This document shows, in pieces, positions 13,233 through 34,825 of a stretch of DNA of 34,825 nt (position 1 is the stretch's first letter; each line of letters opens with the position of its first letter). The position numbers and the translations under genes are program-made. The DNA comes from Geobacteraceae bacterium (lineage in GTDB: Bacteria > Desulfobacterota > Desulfuromonadia > Desulfuromonadales > BM103). The notes below the pieces were generated by a model that was given only the letters and a program-made list of their open reading frames with translations, had not been told where the DNA came from and made no database searches. The DNA is taken from NCBI GenBank assembly GCA_024641085.1, contig JAHEDT010000031.1, positions 1-34,825 on the forward strand, written 5' to 3'.

Positions 13233-13321
13233 CAGGGTCACCTCAATGCAAGGGAATGCCGCTGCACAGCGGCTCGATGCGGCTGTTGTCTGTAATCCTG
13301 AACGTTAGCAGGTATTCAGGG

Positions 13322-27664: not shown

Positions 27665-28435
27665 TCATCCTTTACGGCACATCGCCTTTACGAGCAGCCA
27701 GGTGTGGGTGAATTGCACCTCGTTGGAGACCTCCCGCAGATTGATGCCAGCCTGCTGGCCGCTTCGGGCCAGGGTTTTCATGACCTGCAGCAAGGGCGCG
27801 GTGCGGCTGGGATCGGCAACGATCTGTGCCCATTCCCCGAAGCTCCGCTCCTGTTCCCAGCGCTCTTCGCTCTGGACTGCGAAGCCGGCGTTTTCGAGCA
27901 CGCTGCGCAATGCCGTCCGGCTCAGCATGCGCACGTGGGAGGGATCGCGCAGCTGTTCGAGGGCATTGTGCAGGTCCGCTTCGTCGGGGTCCTCCGCTGA
28001 GATGAGGTCGGCGACGATCAGCGTTCCCTGTGGGGCCATGACGCGCCGCACTTCAGCCAGCACCTGCGGTATATCAGAAAAGTGGTGCAGTGACAGCCGC
28101 GTCACGACAACTGCAAAGCTGTCGTCCGCAAAAGGCAGTTGCTCGGCCGGTGCGACGAGAAACCGGCCGTTGGTGAGCCCGCTGTCGGTGAAGCGCTGCG
28201 CGGCCAGGCGAACCATCGCAGGAGTCAAATCGACGCCGACCAATTCGCTTGCAAAGGGCGCCACGACCTCGGCGACGATGCCGGGGCCGCAGGCCAAATC
28301 GAGGGCCCTGCGAACGGGACAGGCCGCAACAAGCGCCGCCATGCGCTCCAGTACGGTCCGGCTGCGAAACGCCGGGGCGTTTGCCATCCCGTTGGCCTGA
28401 CGCGTGAATTCCTTTTGAACCTGCTGTTTGTCCAT
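27665..28435 (-). CDS. Class I SAM-dependent methyltransferase (UbiE/BioC-like)
   Basis: A 256-residue methyltransferase. Motif I is LDLACGPGIVAEVV, motif II region VGVDLTPAMVRLAAQR, and post-motifs LPFADDSFAVVVTRLSLHHF. The general layout (Methyltransf_11) covers UbiE and BioC types. The acceptor cannot be read from the sequence. Context is suggestive: it sits between the MdcH-type malonyl transferase and QOR, in a malonate operon. BioC methylates malonyl-ACP to start biotin synthesis, and a biotin-dependent enzyme lies nearby; this link is speculation. The ATG at 28435 has GGAGGAG upstream; the frame to 28519 is rejected. Confidence 0.88.
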   Translation of the reverse strand: MDKQQVQKEFTRQANGMANAPAFRSRTVLERMAALVAACPVRRALDLACGPGIVAEVVAPFASELVGVDLTPAMVRLAAQRFTDSGLTNGRFLVAPAEQLPFADDSFAVVVTRLSLHHFSDIPQVLAEVRRVMAPQGTLIVADLISAEDPDEADLHNALEQLRDPSHVRMLSRTALRSVLENAGFAVQSEERWEQERSFGEWAQIVADPSRTAPLLQVMKTLARSGQQAGINLREVSNEVQFTHTWLLVKAMCRKG

Positions 28436-28491
28436 TGCTCTCCTCCTGGGTGGGAAACGCTCTGCTGCATAACCGTGATGGCCATGCGGTC

Positions 28492-29424
28492 CTAAGCACT
28501 GCAATGTTTGACAACCCATTCGGCAACGCCTGCCAGCGAGCGGAACTCGTCAACGGCCCGCACCTGGACTCCGGGATAAGCCTCCCGAAACATGCGTGAG
28601 AGGGCGTTGCCAGGCCCCAGTTCAAGAAAAACCCCGCAACCCATTTCAAGCGCCGCCTGTTGGCAGAGGTCCCAGCGGATCGGCTGCCAGATCTGGCTCG
28701 AGAGGGCGTTCAGTGCCTCCCGGCTGTCACGCACTACGGCGCCGCTGACTCCGGCGATGACCGGTACCTGCGGTGATTTGAGCGGCGCAAGCGCAAGATC
28801 TTGACGAAACGCGCTGCCGGCGGCTGTCAGTGCCGTCGTATGTGAGGGCACCGACACCAGGAGTCGCTGAACCTTGTGGGCGCCTGCGGCAACGGCGAGC
28901 GTTTCGATCTGGTCCAGTCCCGCAGTCATCCCGCCGAGGATGAAATGATCGGCACCGTTGACAATGGCGATCTCGGCGCCCGTTGCCGAACAGAACCCTT
29001 CAACCTGGTCGCGGTTCAGGCCGCGCAGGGCGAGCAGCCCTGCGTTCGTCCCGCTTGTGGCTGCGTCCATGAGGGCAGCGCGGCGCGCGGACAGGCGGAG
29101 GGTTTGCTCCATCGTGAGGGCGCCGGCACAGCCATAGGCGGCGAACTCACCGAAGCTGTATCCGGCAAACACGCGGGGCCTGGGGAGACCCTCGGCGAGA
29201 GCCAGCCAGGTCACCAGTTGCCGCAGGCAGATCAGTGGCTGCGCCAGGGTATTGTCGAACGCCTCGCCGGCCTGTGAATGCGCCGCGAAGGCCGCCCCAT
29301 CGCCCCAAAGCAACTCAGCGCCGGCCCGCAATCGTCGCTGTGACTCCTGGTGCTCGGAGAACAGCGCAAACATGTCGGGGTGCTGTTCGCCCTGTCCCGG
29401 GCACAGGATGCCAAGACCGTTCAT
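28492..29424 (-). CDS. mdcH: MdcH-type malonyl-CoA:ACP transacylase (FabD family)
   Basis: A 310-residue acyltransferase of the FabD fold. It has the oxyanion motif CPGQGEQHPDMF at the N-terminus, the nucleophile Ser90 in VFAGYSFGEFAAYG, an Arg-rich segment (SARRAALMDAA), and His195 in VPSHTTAL, completing the Ser-His pair. In biotin-independent malonate decarboxylases, MdcH loads malonyl from malonyl-CoA onto the MdcC carrier to prime it. Location just after mdcB supports that role over fatty-acid synthesis. The ATG at 29424 has GAGGGG upstream and begins eight bases after the mdcB stop. Confidence 0.9.
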   Translation of the reverse strand: MNGLGILCPGQGEQHPDMFALFSEHQESQRRLRAGAELLWGDGAAFAAHSQAGEAFDNTLAQPLICLRQLVTWLALAEGLPRPRVFAGYSFGEFAAYGCAGALTMEQTLRLSARRAALMDAATSGTNAGLLALRGLNRDQVEGFCSATGAEIAIVNGADHFILGGMTAGLDQIETLAVAAGAHKVQRLLVSVPSHTTALTAAGSAFRQDLALAPLKSPQVPVIAGVSGAVVRDSREALNALSSQIWQPIRWDLCQQAALEMGCGVFLELGPGNALSRMFREAYPGVQVRAVDEFRSLAGVAEWVVKHCSA

Positions 29425-29431
29425 TTGCCCC

Positions 29432-30337
29432 TCACGCCGCCGCCTGCAGCCAGTGAACGAACAGGGTCGCTGCCAGCAGGTCGGCACTGCCCCCGGGGCT
29501 CAGCCGCCTTGCGACAAACTGCCGGTGAAGCTGCACCGCATCTGTTTGCCAGCCGCACCGCTGGATACCGCCGGCCTCGATGAAGCCCCGCGCGGAACGC
29601 TGGGCGAACTCGAGTCCGGTTGTCCCGCCCCGATAAAGTAGATTCGAATCCGGCAGGACTGCAATCAGGGCGAACAGGCACTGCACGGTGGCATCATGCA
29701 ACGTAGCGCCCGCTGCCAGGCTGGTCTGCAGAACCGGCAGCCCGGTCCCGAACAGGTGGGGGAACCCCTGCGCCGCCTCCTCGATCACTCCGCCGGCGCC
29801 GTAGCGGAGCTCCACCTGGCCACCGTGGCTGGTTTTAGGCAGGGCTGCGCCGTGGTTGCGGATGGCCAGCCCCCAGGTATGATGCACGTACAAACCGAGG
29901 GTGTCTCCCCGCATACCTTGGTTGCCGGCCTGCAATGCTCCCGCTGCGGCCGCCAGCAGGCCGAGGTTGAAAATTCCGCCTCGGTGGGTGTTGATGCCTC
30001 CGGTCGCCTGAAGCATGCGGGCTTCAGCAGCTATGCCCAGGTTCTTCAGGTCGGTGAAGGGTGCGCTGCGCATGCCGGCCAGGCTGATCTCCATAAAATA
30101 GCTGCGCAGAGACAAAAGGCTGCGGAAAAAAGTGCTGGCGTCCATATCGTCATGGCTGCCGCTGTCGGTGGGACTGACCAGGCCGGGCTTGGGATAGGTG
30201 CTGAGTTCCTGATGCAGGGCGCGCAGGGCCAGGCGCGCGATGGTCCGGCAGTCGCCGGCAGAGAGGGGTAGGCGGTCTCCGTGCAAGGGAACGCCAGGGT
30301 TTGAAAATTCTCTGGCTGGTCGGGCTGAGCTGTGCAT
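29432..30337 (-). CDS. mdcB: Triphosphoribosyl-dephospho-CoA synthase (MdcB/MadG/CitG family)
   Basis: A 301-residue enzyme that makes 2'-(5''-triphosphoribosyl)-3'-dephospho-CoA from ATP and dephospho-CoA, the precursor of the prosthetic group carried by the malonate decarboxylase ACP. The CitG/MdcB signature is clear: TYPKPGLVSPTDSGSHDDMD, then GINTHRGGIFNLGLLAAAAG. ATG 30337 is preferred (AAGG upstream); TTG 30364 is the alternative. It is the first gene of the minus-strand accessory operon, divergent from the GntR regulator. In the M. rubra set the equivalent is believed to be MadG. Confidence 0.93.
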   Translation of the reverse strand: MHSSARPAREFSNPGVPLHGDRLPLSAGDCRTIARLALRALHQELSTYPKPGLVSPTDSGSHDDMDASTFFRSLLSLRSYFMEISLAGMRSAPFTDLKNLGIAAEARMLQATGGINTHRGGIFNLGLLAAAAGALQAGNQGMRGDTLGLYVHHTWGLAIRNHGAALPKTSHGGQVELRYGAGGVIEEAAQGFPHLFGTGLPVLQTSLAAGATLHDATVQCLFALIAVLPDSNLLYRGGTTGLEFAQRSARGFIEAGGIQRCGWQTDAVQLHRQFVARRLSPGGSADLLAATLFVHWLQAAA

Positions 30338-30382
30338 AAAACAGGGCCTTTGATTGCTCAACAAATGGTCACCGTTACCATA

Positions 30383-30416
30383 TTTGTATACAAAAATCTA
30401 TCTCTTGCATACAGGA
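30383..30416. promoter_or_regulatory. Two MatR/GntR-type operators
   Basis: A perfect 12-base palindrome TTTGTATACAAA lies at 30383-30394. A second site TCTTGCATACAGGA is at 30403-30416. The MatR operator in a rhizobial malonate operon is, from memory, TCTTGTA/TACACGA; the second site matches 12 of 14. Both lie between the divergent mdcB and GntR genes, and GntR/FCD regulators bind TTGTATACAA-like sites. Control of both genes by the neighbouring regulator is the natural inference. Confidence 0.75.
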
Positions 30417-30433
30417 AGTTTCCCGATTATGAT
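30405..30433 (+). promoter_or_regulatory. Sigma-70 promoter of the GntR regulator gene
   Basis: TTGCAT (30405-30410) and TATGAT (30428-30433) are exactly 17 bases apart, about 47 bases before the start codon. The -35 element lies within the second operator (30403-30416), which suggests autoregulation. Confidence 0.6.
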
Positions 30434-30480
30434 TTGCCGACAAGCTCAAGTCCACGGAAACGTTCAGCCGGGGAGGATTC

Positions 30481-31146
30481 ATGGAGAAGAGCACAGCCCC
30501 TTTGCGTAGATCCGAGCAGTTGCGTGAAATTATCGAAGAACGGATTGCCACCGGGCGGTACCGTCCAGGCATGAGACTCGACGAGACGGAGCTGGCCACG
30601 GAATTCGAGGTTTCCCGTACGCCGATTCGCGAAGCGTTCATGCAGTTGTCCTCCGCAGGCCTGCTCGATTTACGGCCAAGGCGTGGCGCCATGGTTCAGG
30701 AGATCAGCCCGCAAAGGCTCTGCGAGATGTTCGAGGTCATGGCGGAACTCGAGGCGATGTGTGCCCGGCTGGCCGCTCGCCGTTTGACGGATGCCGACCA
30801 GCAGGCACTGACCGCGGCACACCACGCCTGCCAGACTGCCCGCGAGGCGAACGAACCGGATGCTTTCTACCGGATCAACGAGCATTTTCACCTGGCCATC
30901 TATGCCGCCAGTCATAACGGTTTTCTCATCGAAACCGCCACCGCGCTGCAGCGGCGCCTCAGTGCCTATCGACGCCTGCAACTGCGCGTGCGCGACCGCG
31001 TGCGAACCTCCCACGGTGAGCACGCGGCGATCGTCGAGGCGATCATCGCCGGCGAGGGCGAGAAGGCCGCTGCCCTGGTCAGGCAGCATGTTTCCGTCCA
31101 GGGCGAGCGCTTCAACGACCTGATCGCCTCGCTGGACAACTTCTGA
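30481..31146 (+). CDS. GntR-family (FCD/FadR subfamily) regulator, probably of malonate genes
   Basis: A 221-residue regulator with an N-terminal winged helix-turn-helix (residues 8-75, ATEFEVSRTPIREAFMQLSSAGLLDLRPRRGAMV) and a C-terminal FCD ligand-binding domain (from ~85, MFEVMAELEAMCARLAA; His-containing FYRINEHFHLAIY and later EHAAIVEAI). Family members sense carboxylic acids. GGGGAGG precedes the ATG. It lies head-to-head with mdcB and tail-to-tail with madF, embedded in the malonate locus like MatR in rhizobia, so malonate or a derivative is the likely ligand. Confidence 0.9.
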   Translation: MEKSTAPLRRSEQLREIIEERIATGRYRPGMRLDETELATEFEVSRTPIREAFMQLSSAGLLDLRPRRGAMVQEISPQRLCEMFEVMAELEAMCARLAARRLTDADQQALTAAHHACQTAREANEPDAFYRINEHFHLAIYAASHNGFLIETATALQRRLSAYRRLQLRVRDRVRTSHGEHAAIVEAIIAGEGEKAAALVRQHVSVQGERFNDLIASLDNF

Positions 31147-31176
31147 CCCCTTCGTGCCCTGCCAGGGATCGGCTCT

Positions 31177-31389
31177 CTATTCCTCGATGACCAACAAAAC
31201 CTGTCCCGGGCTGACCTTGCCGCCCACGGCAACCTTGACTTCACTGACCGTGCCGTCGCAGGGGCTTGGGAGAGGGGTCTCCATCTTCATCGCCTCGAGG
31301 ACAATGATCCGCTGGCCCTTGGTCACGGCATCACCGGCGTTGACCTTGATCGAGAGTACCTTGCCGGGCATTTTCGCTTTGATTTCCAA
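31177..31389 (-). CDS. madF: Biotin carrier protein of malonate decarboxylase
   Basis: A 70-residue protein that is nothing but a biotinyl domain. The canonical EAMKM motif carries the biotinylated Lys35. The N-terminal [16 protein letters not shown] and the C-terminal [10 protein letters not shown] edges are typical of the barrel-sandwich fold. It accepts carboxyl from malonyl-ACP through MadC/MadD and passes it to the membrane decarboxylase MadB. It lacks the Pro/Ala-rich linker found in many carriers. It lies 30 bases from the convergent GntR gene and 30 bases after the mdcG-type gene. Confidence 0.93.
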
Positions 31390-31419
31390 TGGATTCTCCT
31401 TTTTGCATCGTGTTGATGG

Positions 31420-32145
31420 TCAGTTGGTGACAATGTCCGCAACCTCAGCACCTGCTTGACCAGGTAACTGGGACAAGACATGGGCGCGCGGCAGGAGAGC
31501 GACATCGGCAAAGCTCTTGCCGATGACCATGCGCCCCTCGCCGAGCAGTTCCTTGAGTTGCACTCCGTAGCCAGCGGGGAGGTCGAGCTCGACGTCGACC
31601 CGCAGCGCGTATCGTTCTTCCAGCCCCCTGATCTCACCCATGAAGCATGCCAGGGCCTCCCTGGGAGCTGGCGCGACCAGCAGGTCAAGATCGGAACCCT
31701 GATGGGTATAGGGAAGTCCGGTGTAAATCTCGAGGGCTGCAGACCCCCATGCACCCAGTACCAGGCCGAGGCGTCCCGCGAGTCGCTGAGCGACAGCCAG
31801 GGCTCTCAGGCTGGGCGTGCGTTCCGGGAGCGGTGACCCCAGGAGAGCGTAGGGGCTGGTGACGCGTAAAACCTCTGCGCGGCTGACCACTGCGGCGATC
31901 CGCAGGCGGCCTTCGGGCCCCACCCAAGGGCTGCAGAACCCGACGGGAACGCATGCCGCGGGAACCGTTCTGTCAGGGCGCCGGACGATGCCGGGGATCC
32001 GCGCTCCGGCTTTCTCCGCCAGCAGCACTTGAGCGGCCTGCTCCCTGGTCACCATCCGGCCACCTTCACCGTCCGCATGATCGGCCAGGGCCGCTGCGCG
32101 GCCTGCGTCCGAGATGTCAACCAGGGTGTGTCGTTTCCATGTCAT
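31420..32145 (-). CDS. mdcG: Phosphoribosyl-dephospho-CoA transferase (MdcG type, holo-ACP synthase)
   Basis: A 241-residue nucleotidyltransferase-like enzyme that attaches phosphoribosyl-dephospho-CoA to a serine of the malonate decarboxylase ACP. The signature is a GAWGSAALEIYTG motif (G134, S135) followed by SDLDLLV with Asp152 and Asp154 as metal ligands. It matches MdcG, which works with the MdcB product. In the M. rubra order this position is madK. It is located between madH and madF in the same direction. The ATG at 32145 follows CAGGTTGAC. Confidence 0.88.
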   Translation of the reverse strand: MTWKRHTLVDISDAGRAAALADHADGEGGRMVTREQAAQVLLAEKAGARIPGIVRRPDRTVPAACVPVGFCSPWVGPEGRLRIAAVVSRAEVLRVTSPYALLGSPLPERTPSLRALAVAQRLAGRLGLVLGAWGSAALEIYTGLPYTHQGSDLDLLVAPAPREALACFMGEIRGLEERYALRVDVELDLPAGYGVQLKELLGEGRMVIGKSFADVALLPRAHVLSQLPGQAGAEVADIVTN

Positions 32146-32183
32146 CTGTCAACCTGTCAGGAAAAGATCTCCGGGCACCGCGC

Positions 32184-33296
32184 TCAACGGGTTTTATGCC
32201 AGGTCGGGTCGGTCTTTGCGGTTTGCTGCAGGTCGAGCTGTGCCTGGACCATCAGCTCGAACATCCGCGTTTTGACCGGCCCGACCACCGTGGCGGCCAC
32301 GGCCGGACAGGACCCTCCGGTTGCCACTGCCGGGGCCAGTTCAAGCACCGTGGCCGGGGCTTCGAGCTGCACCTCCGGACGCACTTTCACTACCCGGCCC
32401 TTGATCCTCAGAATGGTCCGTGCCACCCGTCCCAGGGTCTCGGCTGAGCCTAGCGTGCTGGCCGCAATGTAGACTTCGTACTCAGGATGGGTTCGTTGCC
32501 GGCGATAGGTGATGATCTGACCAGCAGGGACCCCCGGCAGTCGGCAGACATGCCCGGACGTGCTGATCGGAAAGCTGTCACCCATCGGCAGGCCGCCGAC
32601 CACCAGCTCGTGGTAGTGATCCTGGTGCGGGGACGGAATCAGGGTGATGTCGTCGCGCAGCGGGATGCCGTTCAAGGTCAGCCAGCCGAACTCCTGGCAG
32701 CCGTAGATGTCGTGCACCCGCCAGCCGAAGCGCTCGGCGACTGGCAGCAGTTCCAGGTCGAGGGTCGTCCCTGCAGTGAAGACTATGACATCGCGGGGGA
32801 TGTCATTCTCCAGCCCCAGAGCGCAGGCGTCAACCAGCGCGGCGCGTAGAAAGCTCGATTCGCCGACGATCAGGTCGGGTGGGCCGCTGCACAGGGCCAG
32901 GAGGAAGGCGTCGCGGCTGGAACGAACCGGGAAACGCCAGCTCAACCCATACTCCCGCAGTGCCGCGGCCGGGAACACGTTCACCAGCGGGGCGTAGCTG
33001 ACCAGGACCTTGCCGTCGCGCATCACGCCGGCCATCTCGAGGGCTTTGGTCGCGGCCTTACCTCTTTCGGCAAGTTCCGCATGGGTGACGCCGACGATGT
33101 TCTGAAAAGCTGTCGAGCCGGTGGTAAAACTCACGAAGGCGAGGTTGTAGGGGGTGTGAATCTCTTCGATAATGTGTGCGGCCGTCGCCCCGGCAATGCC
33201 CTTGTCCTCAAGAGTCCGCCGGTCGGCTGTGGCCAGGGTCGGGGCGGTCCCGAACTCCTCCACCATCTGCTCAAGGTCCCGCAAGACTTTTGACAT
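32184..33296 (-). CDS. madH: Acetate:ACP ligase of the malonate decarboxylase (MadH)
   Basis: A 370-residue acyl-adenylate-type enzyme. It is about half the length of normal acyl-CoA ligases, with the phosphate-binding loop FTTGSTA (residues 57-63) and a later segment with DIYGCQEFGWLTLNG, the AMP-binding core motif, then GRVARTILRIKGRVVKVRPE near the end. In Malonomonas the MadH protein uses ATP to acetylate the ACP thiol and so starts the cycle. Position between madD and mdcG matches that cluster. A phenylacetate-CoA-ligase-like enzyme is the alternative, but context favours MadH. AGGG lies upstream of the ATG. Confidence 0.85.
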   Translation of the reverse strand: MSKVLRDLEQMVEEFGTAPTLATADRRTLEDKGIAGATAAHIIEEIHTPYNLAFVSFTTGSTAFQNIVGVTHAELAERGKAATKALEMAGVMRDGKVLVSYAPLVNVFPAAALREYGLSWRFPVRSSRDAFLLALCSGPPDLIVGESSFLRAALVDACALGLENDIPRDVIVFTAGTTLDLELLPVAERFGWRVHDIYGCQEFGWLTLNGIPLRDDITLIPSPHQDHYHELVVGGLPMGDSFPISTSGHVCRLPGVPAGQIITYRRQRTHPEYEVYIAASTLGSAETLGRVARTILRIKGRVVKVRPEVQLEAPATVLELAPAVATGGSCPAVAATVVGPVKTRMFELMVQAQLDLQQTAKTDPTWHKTR

Positions 33297-33359: not shown

Positions 33360-34238
33360 CTACTTGAGGTAGCGGTCGGCCACCGCGGCAAACTCTTCGT
33401 TCATGGTCCGCATGACCGCCCGGCGTGCGGTGCGACCGCCGCGCACCTCTCCCAGGGTGCCGCGGCCCCAGGGGCCAAGTTCATCATCCTTGCCGGCAGC
33501 TTTCAGGGCACGCACTTCGGCCACATGGGCGATCACCCGCTCACGCATGGCTTCGATCCGGTCGACCAGTTCCTCGACGCCGCCGAGTCGATAGAAGAAG
33601 TCCGGCCCTGCGGCAAAGACCGGGTTGGTTTTCGCCAGGTCCTGCAGCCACTCGATATTCAGCCGGGTAATGCGGGCGATGCTGGTGAGCGGCATGACGT
33701 GAATCATGGTATTGAAAGATGCCGTCAGGGACAAGACGTGATCGGCCTGCAGCCCATGGCAGAGGAACCCGCCGGAAATCGCCCGGCCCACCACCATGGC
33801 GATGATCGGGTGACCGGCCTTGCGGGCCTCGGCCAGGGCCATCTGATAGGCGCCGGTGGCCTTGTTCATGCCGGCGATCTCCTCCAGCTTGCCGGCGCCG
33901 TTGCCCGGGGTGTCAACGATGAGTACGATGGCCCGTTTTTCGGCAGATGCACGATCCTTATCAGCTTCGATACTGTGATAGACGGCCAGGGCCATCTTGT
34001 AGCCTTCTTCGAGTCCGATAATGCCGGCGTAGACCACGGGAAATTTCTGGTTCATGGTCATTGCGTCGCTGGCAATAATCGTGCAGACGTCACCGTCGAG
34101 ACTGGCGGTGCCGATGACCGCTCCGGGCCCGAACTCTTCGTCAGTCAGATGCAAGTTTCCCACCTCGCCTTCCCGGAAGCTGTCCGGGTCGACGATCATG
34201 TCTATGGCCTGGCGGCCCTGTCCGATCAAGTTGTCCAT
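33360..34238 (-). CDS. madD: Malonate decarboxylase carboxytransferase subunit MadD (MdcE-like)
   Basis: A 292-residue crotonase-fold carboxyltransferase subunit. Motifs include FPVVYAGIIGLEEGYKMALA, IVLIVDTPGNGAGKLEEIAG, HPIIAMVVGRAISGGFLCHG (oxyanion-hole Gly-Gly) and HVMPLTSIARITRLN. It works with MadC to move the carboxyl from malonyl-ACP to MadF biotin. The ATG at 34238 has AGGGA overlapping the stop codon of madC, so translation is coupled. Related MdcE proteins serve in the biotin-independent enzyme, but the biotin carrier nearby decides for Mad. Confidence 0.92.
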   Translation of the reverse strand: MDNLIGQGRQAIDMIVDPDSFREGEVGNLHLTDEEFGPGAVIGTASLDGDVCTIIASDAMTMNQKFPVVYAGIIGLEEGYKMALAVYHSIEADKDRASAEKRAIVLIVDTPGNGAGKLEEIAGMNKATGAYQMALAEARKAGHPIIAMVVGRAISGGFLCHGLQADHVLSLTASFNTMIHVMPLTSIARITRLNIEWLQDLAKTNPVFAAGPDFFYRLGGVEELVDRIEAMRERVIAHVAEVRALKAAGKDDELGPWGRGTLGEVRGGRTARRAVMRTMNEEFAAVADRYLK

Positions 34239-34247
34239 GCTGCGTCC

Positions 34248-34825
34248 CTAACTGGCAATCTTGAGCCGTTTGGCTGTCATCAGGAAGTCCTCAAGTTTCA
34301 TGTCCACCAGCTTGTCAGCGGTCGGGTTGCCAGCGTATTCCCAGACATCCCTGGAATCACGGGGGGCAATCTCGACGAGAGCGGCCACAGTGCGCAGCTG
34401 GGTCAAAACCTTGTCGAGGCTGCCGATGCGACGCAGCGCATCGACCTCCGCGTAAGGCATGGCCAGGATCTTCTGCAGGGCCCGGCGAAAAGCCGCGATC
34501 GTGTCCGGCACCAGGATATTGCAATCACCCATGAGATACTTGTGCTTGCCCCCGGTCACCCGGTAGACCAGGGCGCGGTCGGAGGCGTCGAACTCATCCT
34601 TACCCATCTCTTCTTCGATGACTTCCGGCCCGGTCAGGCCGAGGCGTCCGAAAGGGCTCATGATAATCGCATCGCTGGCCGCGGCGACGAATCCCATGCC
34701 GCCAAAACAGCCGACCCGGCCGCCGATGATGCCGATGATGGGGACTTTCCCCCGGCAGTCCTGGAACTGGTCCATGAGCTCGGCATGGGCGAGCAACCCG
34801 GCATTGGCCTCGTGCAGCCGCACAC
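34248..34825 (-). CDS. madC: Malonate decarboxylase carboxytransferase subunit MadC, C-terminal part
   Basis: The gene enters from the right edge; about 192 C-terminal residues are visible. The start is missing. VRLHEANAG at the edge and IGIIGGRVGCFGGMGFVAAASD, then LGLTGPEVIEEEMG, match the MdcD/MadC carboxyltransferase beta family with its two-glycine oxyanion loop. It pairs with MadD, nine bases downstream. Genes for the ACP, acyltransferase MadA and membrane decarboxylase MadB would be expected beyond the edge in the M. rubra order. Confidence 0.92.
   Translation of the reverse strand, partial: VRLHEANAGLLAHAELMDQFQDCRGKVPIIGIIGGRVGCFGGMGFVAAASDAIIMSPFGRLGLTGPEVIEEEMGKDEFDASDRALVYRVTGGKHKYLMGDCNILVPDTIAAFRRALQKILAMPYAEVDALRRIGSLDKVLTQLRTVAALVEIAPRDSRDVWEYAGNPTADKLVDMKLEDFLMTAKRLKIAS

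Follow-up and report, generated by a model that had tools for sequence, protein, structure and literature searches.

Two malonate decarboxylases nested in one locus of a Geobacteraceae bacterium, with shared helper genes and probably a starter enzyme each

The stretch of DNA analysed here (the window) comprises 34,825 nucleotides of a Geobacteraceae bacterium (GCA_024641085.1, contig JAHEDT010000031.1) and carries genes of malonate decarboxylases, among them genes for two enzymes predicted to start the reaction cycle by loading the carrier subunit, the ATP-type MadH and the malonyl-coenzyme A (CoA)-type MdcH. As the original prediction had stated, both genes are present in the locus. They lie on the minus strand, and within 28492-33296 mdcG, madF, a divergent gntR and mdcB are found between them. 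According to PMC5534430, one kind of malonate decarboxylase occurs in Malonomonas rubra and other anaerobes and a cytosolic, biotin-independent kind in aerobes; in the latter, a CoA-like arm is made and attached by MdcB and MdcG, and MdcH activates the carrier with malonyl-CoA.

The window is the entire contig C16 of the genome G000 (3.5 Mb, 151 contigs), and its end falls inside madC. It encodes MadF, MadD and the truncated MadC. No malonate carrier gene was found inside the window in a genome-wide carrier search, which identified two carriers in the genome, MdcC on C124 (122.7 bits, over cut-off) and MadE on C143. C16, C143 and C124 are chained end to end in this order by overlaps of exactly 121 bases each, as is usual for contigs of one assembly graph. 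C143 contains madA, madE and the front part of madC, and madB runs across C143 (512.5 bits) and C124 (207.3 bits). All four Mdc subunits, MdcA, MdcC, MdcD and MdcE, are encoded on C124 (4,310 bases), which is thus linked to the window via C143; its mdcA is cut by the contig end and is whole in the related genome G005 (929.5 bits). The joined order is mdcA-C-D-E, usp, madB-A-E-C-D-H, mdcG, madF, gntR (reversed), mdcB-H. Pfam identified usp in G005, and the alignment of C124 with G005 places it in G000. In G005 this universal stress protein gene (L029:10154-10693) stands between mdcE and the operator-like site preceding madB, and a similar open reading frame is found in G135 (L025:18684-19229). 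The features of the locus inside the window are listed in Table 1. Promoter and terminator scans gave 3 and 3 sites compared with 1.0 and 4.7 expected, and were not used.

Table 1. Malonate-related and adjoining features of the window, with positions, strand and supporting evidence
Feature	Position	Strand	Evidence
madC, carboxyltransferase subunit, C-terminal part	34248..34823	-	gene cut by contig end; continues on C143 via 121-base exact overlap
madD, carboxyltransferase subunit	33360..34238	-	TIGR03134 293.6 bits; 78-88% identical to madD of four dual relatives
madH, putative ATP-type carrier ligase, predicted Mad-cycle starter	32184..33296	-	60-61% identity to Malonomonas rubra protein; adenylating-enzyme fold of model
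mdcG, prosthetic-group transferase, mad lineage, sole genomic copy found	31420..32145	-	TIGR03135 127.5 bits; tree
madF, biotin carrier, AMKM motif	31177..31389	-	PF00364 68 bits; translation
gntR regulator, FCD class, mdc lineage	30481..31146	+	71-76% identical to gntR present in 5/8 mdc-only loci
Tandem operator-like palindromes, putative function	30384..30414	.	TTGTATACAA at 30384-30393; two-mismatch copy at 30405-30414
mdcB, prosthetic-group precursor synthase, mdc lineage, sole genomic copy found	29432..30364	-	TIGR03132 310.6 bits, over cut-off; tree; true start uncertain
mdcH, putative malonyl-CoA:carrier transacylase, predicted Mdc-cycle starter, mdc lineage	28492..29424	-	profile, motifs, tree
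S-adenosylmethionine (SAM) methyltransferase gene after mdcH	27665..28519	-	Pfam matches; association only

The counterpart of MadH in M. rubra DSM 5091 is encoded at the equivalent position of that strain's mad cluster (contig NZ_FQZT01000031.1). In M. rubra, MadH reportedly acetylates the carrier, as worked out by the Dimroth group. MadH matched the Pfam AMP-binding family weakly (20.7 bits, cut-off 29.9), and a search of its profile against solved-structure sequences gave nothing better than E 0.049. An AlphaFold model had a mean predicted local distance difference test (pLDDT) score of 82.3, with values below 50 for residues 34-67. About residues 19-271 of this model align with adenylating enzymes of the PaaK, EntE and acyl-ACP-synthetase (ACP, acyl carrier protein) types, and the best structural match was VIA (Z 13.9, root-mean-square deviation 3.3 over 210 residues). 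The structural matches of the predicted model would fit an ATP-using ligase. The AMKM motif of MadF is one that we take to mark a biotin carrier.

The reading frame of MdcH extends over 28492-29487, with a likely start at the ATG at 29424, 7 bases past the stop of mdcB. MdcH scored 288.1 bits with TIGR03131 (malonate_mdcH) and 133.2 with TIGR00128 (fabD). Among its relatives, however, MdcHs beside mdcACDE or in loci with both systems scored 211.9-307.2 bits with TIGR03131, and proteins assigned to FabD by elimination scored 215.6-244.9. This score therefore fails to separate MdcH from FabD in the class, and the tree and the place in the operon were used instead. In a tree of 15 rows, MdcH was grouped with seven MdcHs of mdc operons at 99/97, separate from two FabDs; the order among the dual sequences, L069 and L178 is not fixed by this tree. 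In an alignment with other MdcHs and FabD the catalytic motifs PGQG, GYSxGE and PSHT were all kept. Sequences of solved structures found with MdcH were FabD-kind malonyl transacylases and polyketide-type acyltransferases.

A search covered 277 genomes of the class. MadH matches were obtained in 9 of these, six of them strong, and weak partial matches in G085, G088 and G198 (E 3.5e-4 to 9.1e-4) were excluded before counting. Among 53 genomes with carrier matches, 39 had matches below the cut-off and were excluded, and the 14 genomes with a malonate carrier above the cut-off were used. Five of them are dual, with mad and mdc genes (G000, G005, G013, G014 and G135), one is mad-only (G074) and eight are mdc-only. 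By their kinship labels, the five dual genomes fall in the order that holds M. rubra. The full dual order could be observed on one contig each in G013 and G135 (contig of 3,958,620 bases in the latter), and over two contigs each in G005 and G014, parted inside madH and madA, respectively. MadB scored 663.1 bits in G135, over the cut-off, and 663 bits in G005. The arrangement thus recurs in four other genomes and with malonate-gene neighbours, which places the pairing of MadH and MdcH beyond chance. The mad contig of G074 has the same gene order as that of M. rubra. In G005, a second GntR gene and a DctP-Q-M tripartite ATP-independent periplasmic (TRAP) transporter precede mdcA (L029:2678-6388), and open reading frames of matching size and order are seen at this position in G013 and G135. 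The substrate of this transporter is perhaps malonate, which it would take up.

MdcH was placed in all five dual loci, and adjoins mdcACDE in six of the eight mdc-only genomes; in the other two, the contigs end inside mdcB. In the single mad-only genome of the class, the mad cluster was found to contain no MdcH. Each dual genome has one MdcH plus lower-scoring matches that are FabD- or polyketide synthase-like by score and frame length, their FabD identity being verified in G000 only. MdcH thus tracks mdcACDE and MadH mostly tracks mad, so that each starter most likely acts on the carrier of its own system. Judged from sequence, MdcH would most likely prime MdcC, the carrier of the soluble enzyme.

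A genome-wide search of G000 found no further mdcB, mdcG or mdcH, mdcB is single in each of the five dual genomes, and mdcG is single in each of the 14 genomes. Both carriers must therefore share MdcB and MdcG. MadE and MdcC share 41% identity, and the SG(D/N) serine motif is kept in both. The original prediction had suggested a hybrid, in effect one Mad system with two starters, or an ACP shared by two pathways. The former was abandoned as the leading interpretation once mdcACDE was found at the other end of the locus, and in place of one shared ACP there are two carriers, MadE and MdcC, with one maturation set. By the original prediction, a second complete mdc operon elsewhere that uses this MdcH would count against the hybrid. 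This is largely the case: a second enzyme, mdcACDE, is encoded beyond the contig end, in the same locus.

The helper genes are chimeric, as read from their sequences. In the MdcB tree (80 rows) the five dual sequences and the eight mdc-only sequences of the class form a 13-row set at 100, and three enterobacterial MdcBs of mdc loci are placed elsewhere. In the MdcG tree (91 rows) the five dual sequences are united at 99 with one Nitrospiraceae sequence of the mad-only kind, and the 12 mdc rows lie away from them, together on one side of a branch with a support of 91. MdcB, MdcH and GntR are thus of the mdc lineage and MdcG is of the mad lineage, and a mad cassette therefore appears inserted into an mdc operon. 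In the simplest history we infer, the cassette would have landed between mdcE and the helper genes, and the mdc-type mdcG would have been lost.

In each of the five dual loci, the palindrome TTGTATACAA with a weaker copy 21 bases off was found upstream of madB, and G000 and G005 have this tandem between gntR and mdcB as well. It also stands beside gntR in three mdc-only loci (L071, L073 and L074); two others (L069, L070) have single one-mismatch sites beside gntR, L072 has one single one-mismatch site and no gntR in the fetched stretch, and no operator-like site was found in L075 and L076. In G005, G013 and G135, neither mdcA nor the TRAP genes are preceded by a site with at most one mismatch. 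Two-mismatch sites do exist, among them those at 13272 and 14268 of L067, close to the other GntR gene. From its position and recurrence, the tandem would be bound by GntR, and the mdc regulator seems, on this sequence pattern, to have taken over the pump operon.

Comparison of G000 with G005 gave omega values of 0.08-0.32 for all ten genes or parts compared, with madA, madB, madC and mdcA outside the comparison; neither enzyme therefore looks decaying. Identities between the two genomes were 77-83% for MdcC, MdcD and MdcE and 88-91% for MadD, MadE, MadF and the N-terminal part of MadH. The most diverged of the genes compared was mdcG (73%).

A collection of named genomes was scanned with MadH and the best 80 of 104 relatives were kept. 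At least 4.5 kb downstream of madH was available in 59 of these loci and at least 9 kb on both sides in 46. Within the fetched flanks, mdcH was found in only two of the 80, both of the dual lineage (L087 and L088); the co-occurrence of two starter chemistries in one locus, which the original prediction had pointed out, is thus unusual. The tandem palindrome occurred once among the 80 loci, in L088, the contig of L087 stopping short of madB; single exact palindromes were seen in two more (L102 and L134), and no tandem appeared in three mononucleotide shuffles of the 80 loci. More than one carrier over the cut-off was present in six of 50 genomes searched from this set: two dual, two Klebsiella, one Phytobacter and one Rhodospirillales. 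In the latter four the systems lie on different contigs, with two or three mdcG genes.

The M. rubra Mad cluster (L090) resembles the dual locus in the order of madB-A-E-C-D-H, an mdcG-like gene and madF, but an mdcB-like gene of its own precedes madB, and on that contig there is no mdcH, no mdcACDE, no match to the gntR of the dual locus and no operator of this type. The Mdc loci of Pseudomonas, Klebsiella and the mdc-only genomes of the class share mdcACDE, mdcB, mdcH and a 71-76% identical gntR with it, whereas the dual locus has only the mad-lineage mdcG and the mad cassette interrupts its mdc operon. Klebsiella spallanzanii, K. grimontii and Phytobacter massiliensis likewise have both enzymes in one genome, but on different contigs and with an mdcB and mdcG for each system. 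In literature titles and abstract openings no description of linked mad and mdc genes was found; most subscription papers, including the original Malonomonas work, are outside this coverage. The arrangement is real and uncommon, with two known enzymes nested in each other and helper genes in common.

Other combinations were observed in the same collection. A Rhodospirillales metagenome-assembled genome (MAG; G309, L178-L180) has three malonate carriers and three mdcG genes, with one mad locus and mdc loci of two kinds. A Nitrospiraceae MAG (L089) has a mad cluster close to the dual lineage, with a 75% identical MadH, madF, and a weak and perhaps generic match to a Na+-pump beta subunit before madA; its flanks are without mdcB. 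In MAGs with archaeal names (Methanofastidiosum and others; L148, L150, L157-L161, L163-L165), madH loci contain madC-D-H, mdcG and mdcB, with madA and madE where the contig reaches and no strong madB in the fetched flanks. In a Defluviitaleaceae MAG (L149), madA-E-C-D-H and mdcG were found with no madB or madF within about 10 kb on either side, and a search of the genome gave no MadB match. Within the dual lineage, a gene between mdcG and madF in G135 (L025:10426-11208) shares its leading Pfam matches with the SAM methyltransferase of the window; perhaps they are one gene changing place inside the locus.

A Desulfovibrionaceae MAG (CALUUT010000087.1, L091:930-9968) carries mdcA-B-C-D-E, a membrane transporter, a major facilitator superfamily (MFS) gene, madH and mdcG. 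This operon is otherwise of the Klebsiella biotin-independent type, with madH at the position of mdcH. The genome has one carrier gene and, in a genome search, no MadB match; a search for MdcH gave a FabD-like protein and one long-frame match only, and the best match scored higher as FabD (226.0 versus 183.6). From this gene content, MadH seems to start a biotin-independent enzyme in L091.

The observations are probably best explained by two malonate decarboxylases built into one another in one locus, with shared helper genes and an own starter each. Several points weigh against this explanation. The pairing of starters with carriers is a reading of sequence. The score of MdcH lies 9.8 bits short of the curated TIGR03131 cut-off (297.9), though only one of the 14 genomes has any match above it, so that the MdcHs within most mdc-only operons fall short too. 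The sole Klebsiella MdcH in the tree, on a very long branch, is placed on the FabD side. The MdcG and MdcB trees are quick searches without bootstrap, a long-branch warning applies to these and to the MdcH tree, and trees and gene order are the basis for taking mad as the insert and mdc as the recipient, a presumed direction. In G005 and G014 there is no overlap between the two contigs of the pair, whose only link is one split gene in each genome. In addition, gntR-mdcB-mdcH is co-directional with the mad genes in G013, G014 and G135, and the operator-like sites before madB likewise tie expression of MdcH to the pump genes rather than to mdcACDE. The operator beside the mdc-type gntR is also found ahead of madB in each of the five dual loci, so that cross-priming of MadE is possible; together with the operon of L091, this shared operator argues against a strict division and makes cross-priming in the dual locus plausible.

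Among the alternatives, MdcH might prime both carriers, and malonyl-CoA would then restart the Na+ pump without acetate and ATP. This is a doubtful but possible reading: mdcB and mdcH are linked to the mad genes by the operator-like element (G000, G005) or by direction, the likeness of MadE and MdcC and their common serine motif would suit one starter, and the single MdcG already must serve both carriers; however, MdcH tracks mdcACDE, the M. rubra mad contig is without mdcH, and so are the other 78 MadH loci, though 21 of these have less than 4.5 kb downstream. Conversely, MadH could prime both carriers and MdcH be a dispensable remnant, as L091, with madH at the mdcH position, one carrier and no MadB match, might suggest. 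That appears improbable, as mdcH is an open frame in five of five dual genomes, has an omega of 0.195 between G000 and G005 and keeps its motifs. A broader reading is about as tentative as the first of these: starter chemistry would be interchangeable, MdcH and MadH would each load both carriers, and L091 would represent a biotin-independent enzyme started by MadH only.

Two further possibilities were considered and rejected. C124 is short and comes from a draft assembly of many contigs, and could have been wrongly binned, leaving an ordinary mad locus with a stray mdcH; this is very improbable given the 121-base overlaps, the 85-93% identity to the same region within the genus, and the two other genomes in which this order lies on a single contig. 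MdcH could also be a duplicate of FabD that serves fatty-acid ACP, being of the same superfamily and matching fabD itself, but with a separate FabD (371.1 bits) on contig C113 of G000, the separation in the tree and the position directly behind mdcB, there is hardly any likelihood of this. The same FabD excludes that MdcH is the sole fabD of the genome, a caveat raised in the original prediction.

By gene order, the Mad cassette (madB-A-E-C-D-H, mdcG, madF) lies between mdcE and gntR-mdcB-mdcH of an mdc operon in which no mdc-type mdcG is left. Under the favoured explanation of two nested enzymes, MdcB and MdcG would attach the phosphoribosyl-dephospho-CoA arm to both carriers. MadH would then use acetate and ATP to acetylate MadE, which would start the biotin-dependent Na+ pump, and MdcC would be loaded by MdcH with malonyl from malonyl-CoA, starting the soluble biotin-independent enzyme. 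Maturation, and perhaps uptake, would be common to both enzymes, and the cell could either store energy in a Na+ gradient or simply decarboxylate malonate.

If instead the starters were interchangeable, one cell would contain both a Na+ pump started by malonyl-CoA and a soluble enzyme started by acetate plus ATP. With common maturation genes and, seemingly, a common regulator for both enzymes in five genomes, the locus offers a natural test of two questions: whether the CoA-like arm, its transferase and the starter enzymes are general or tied to a single carrier, and how a cell with two routes for the same substrate decides between the one that conserves energy and the one that does not.

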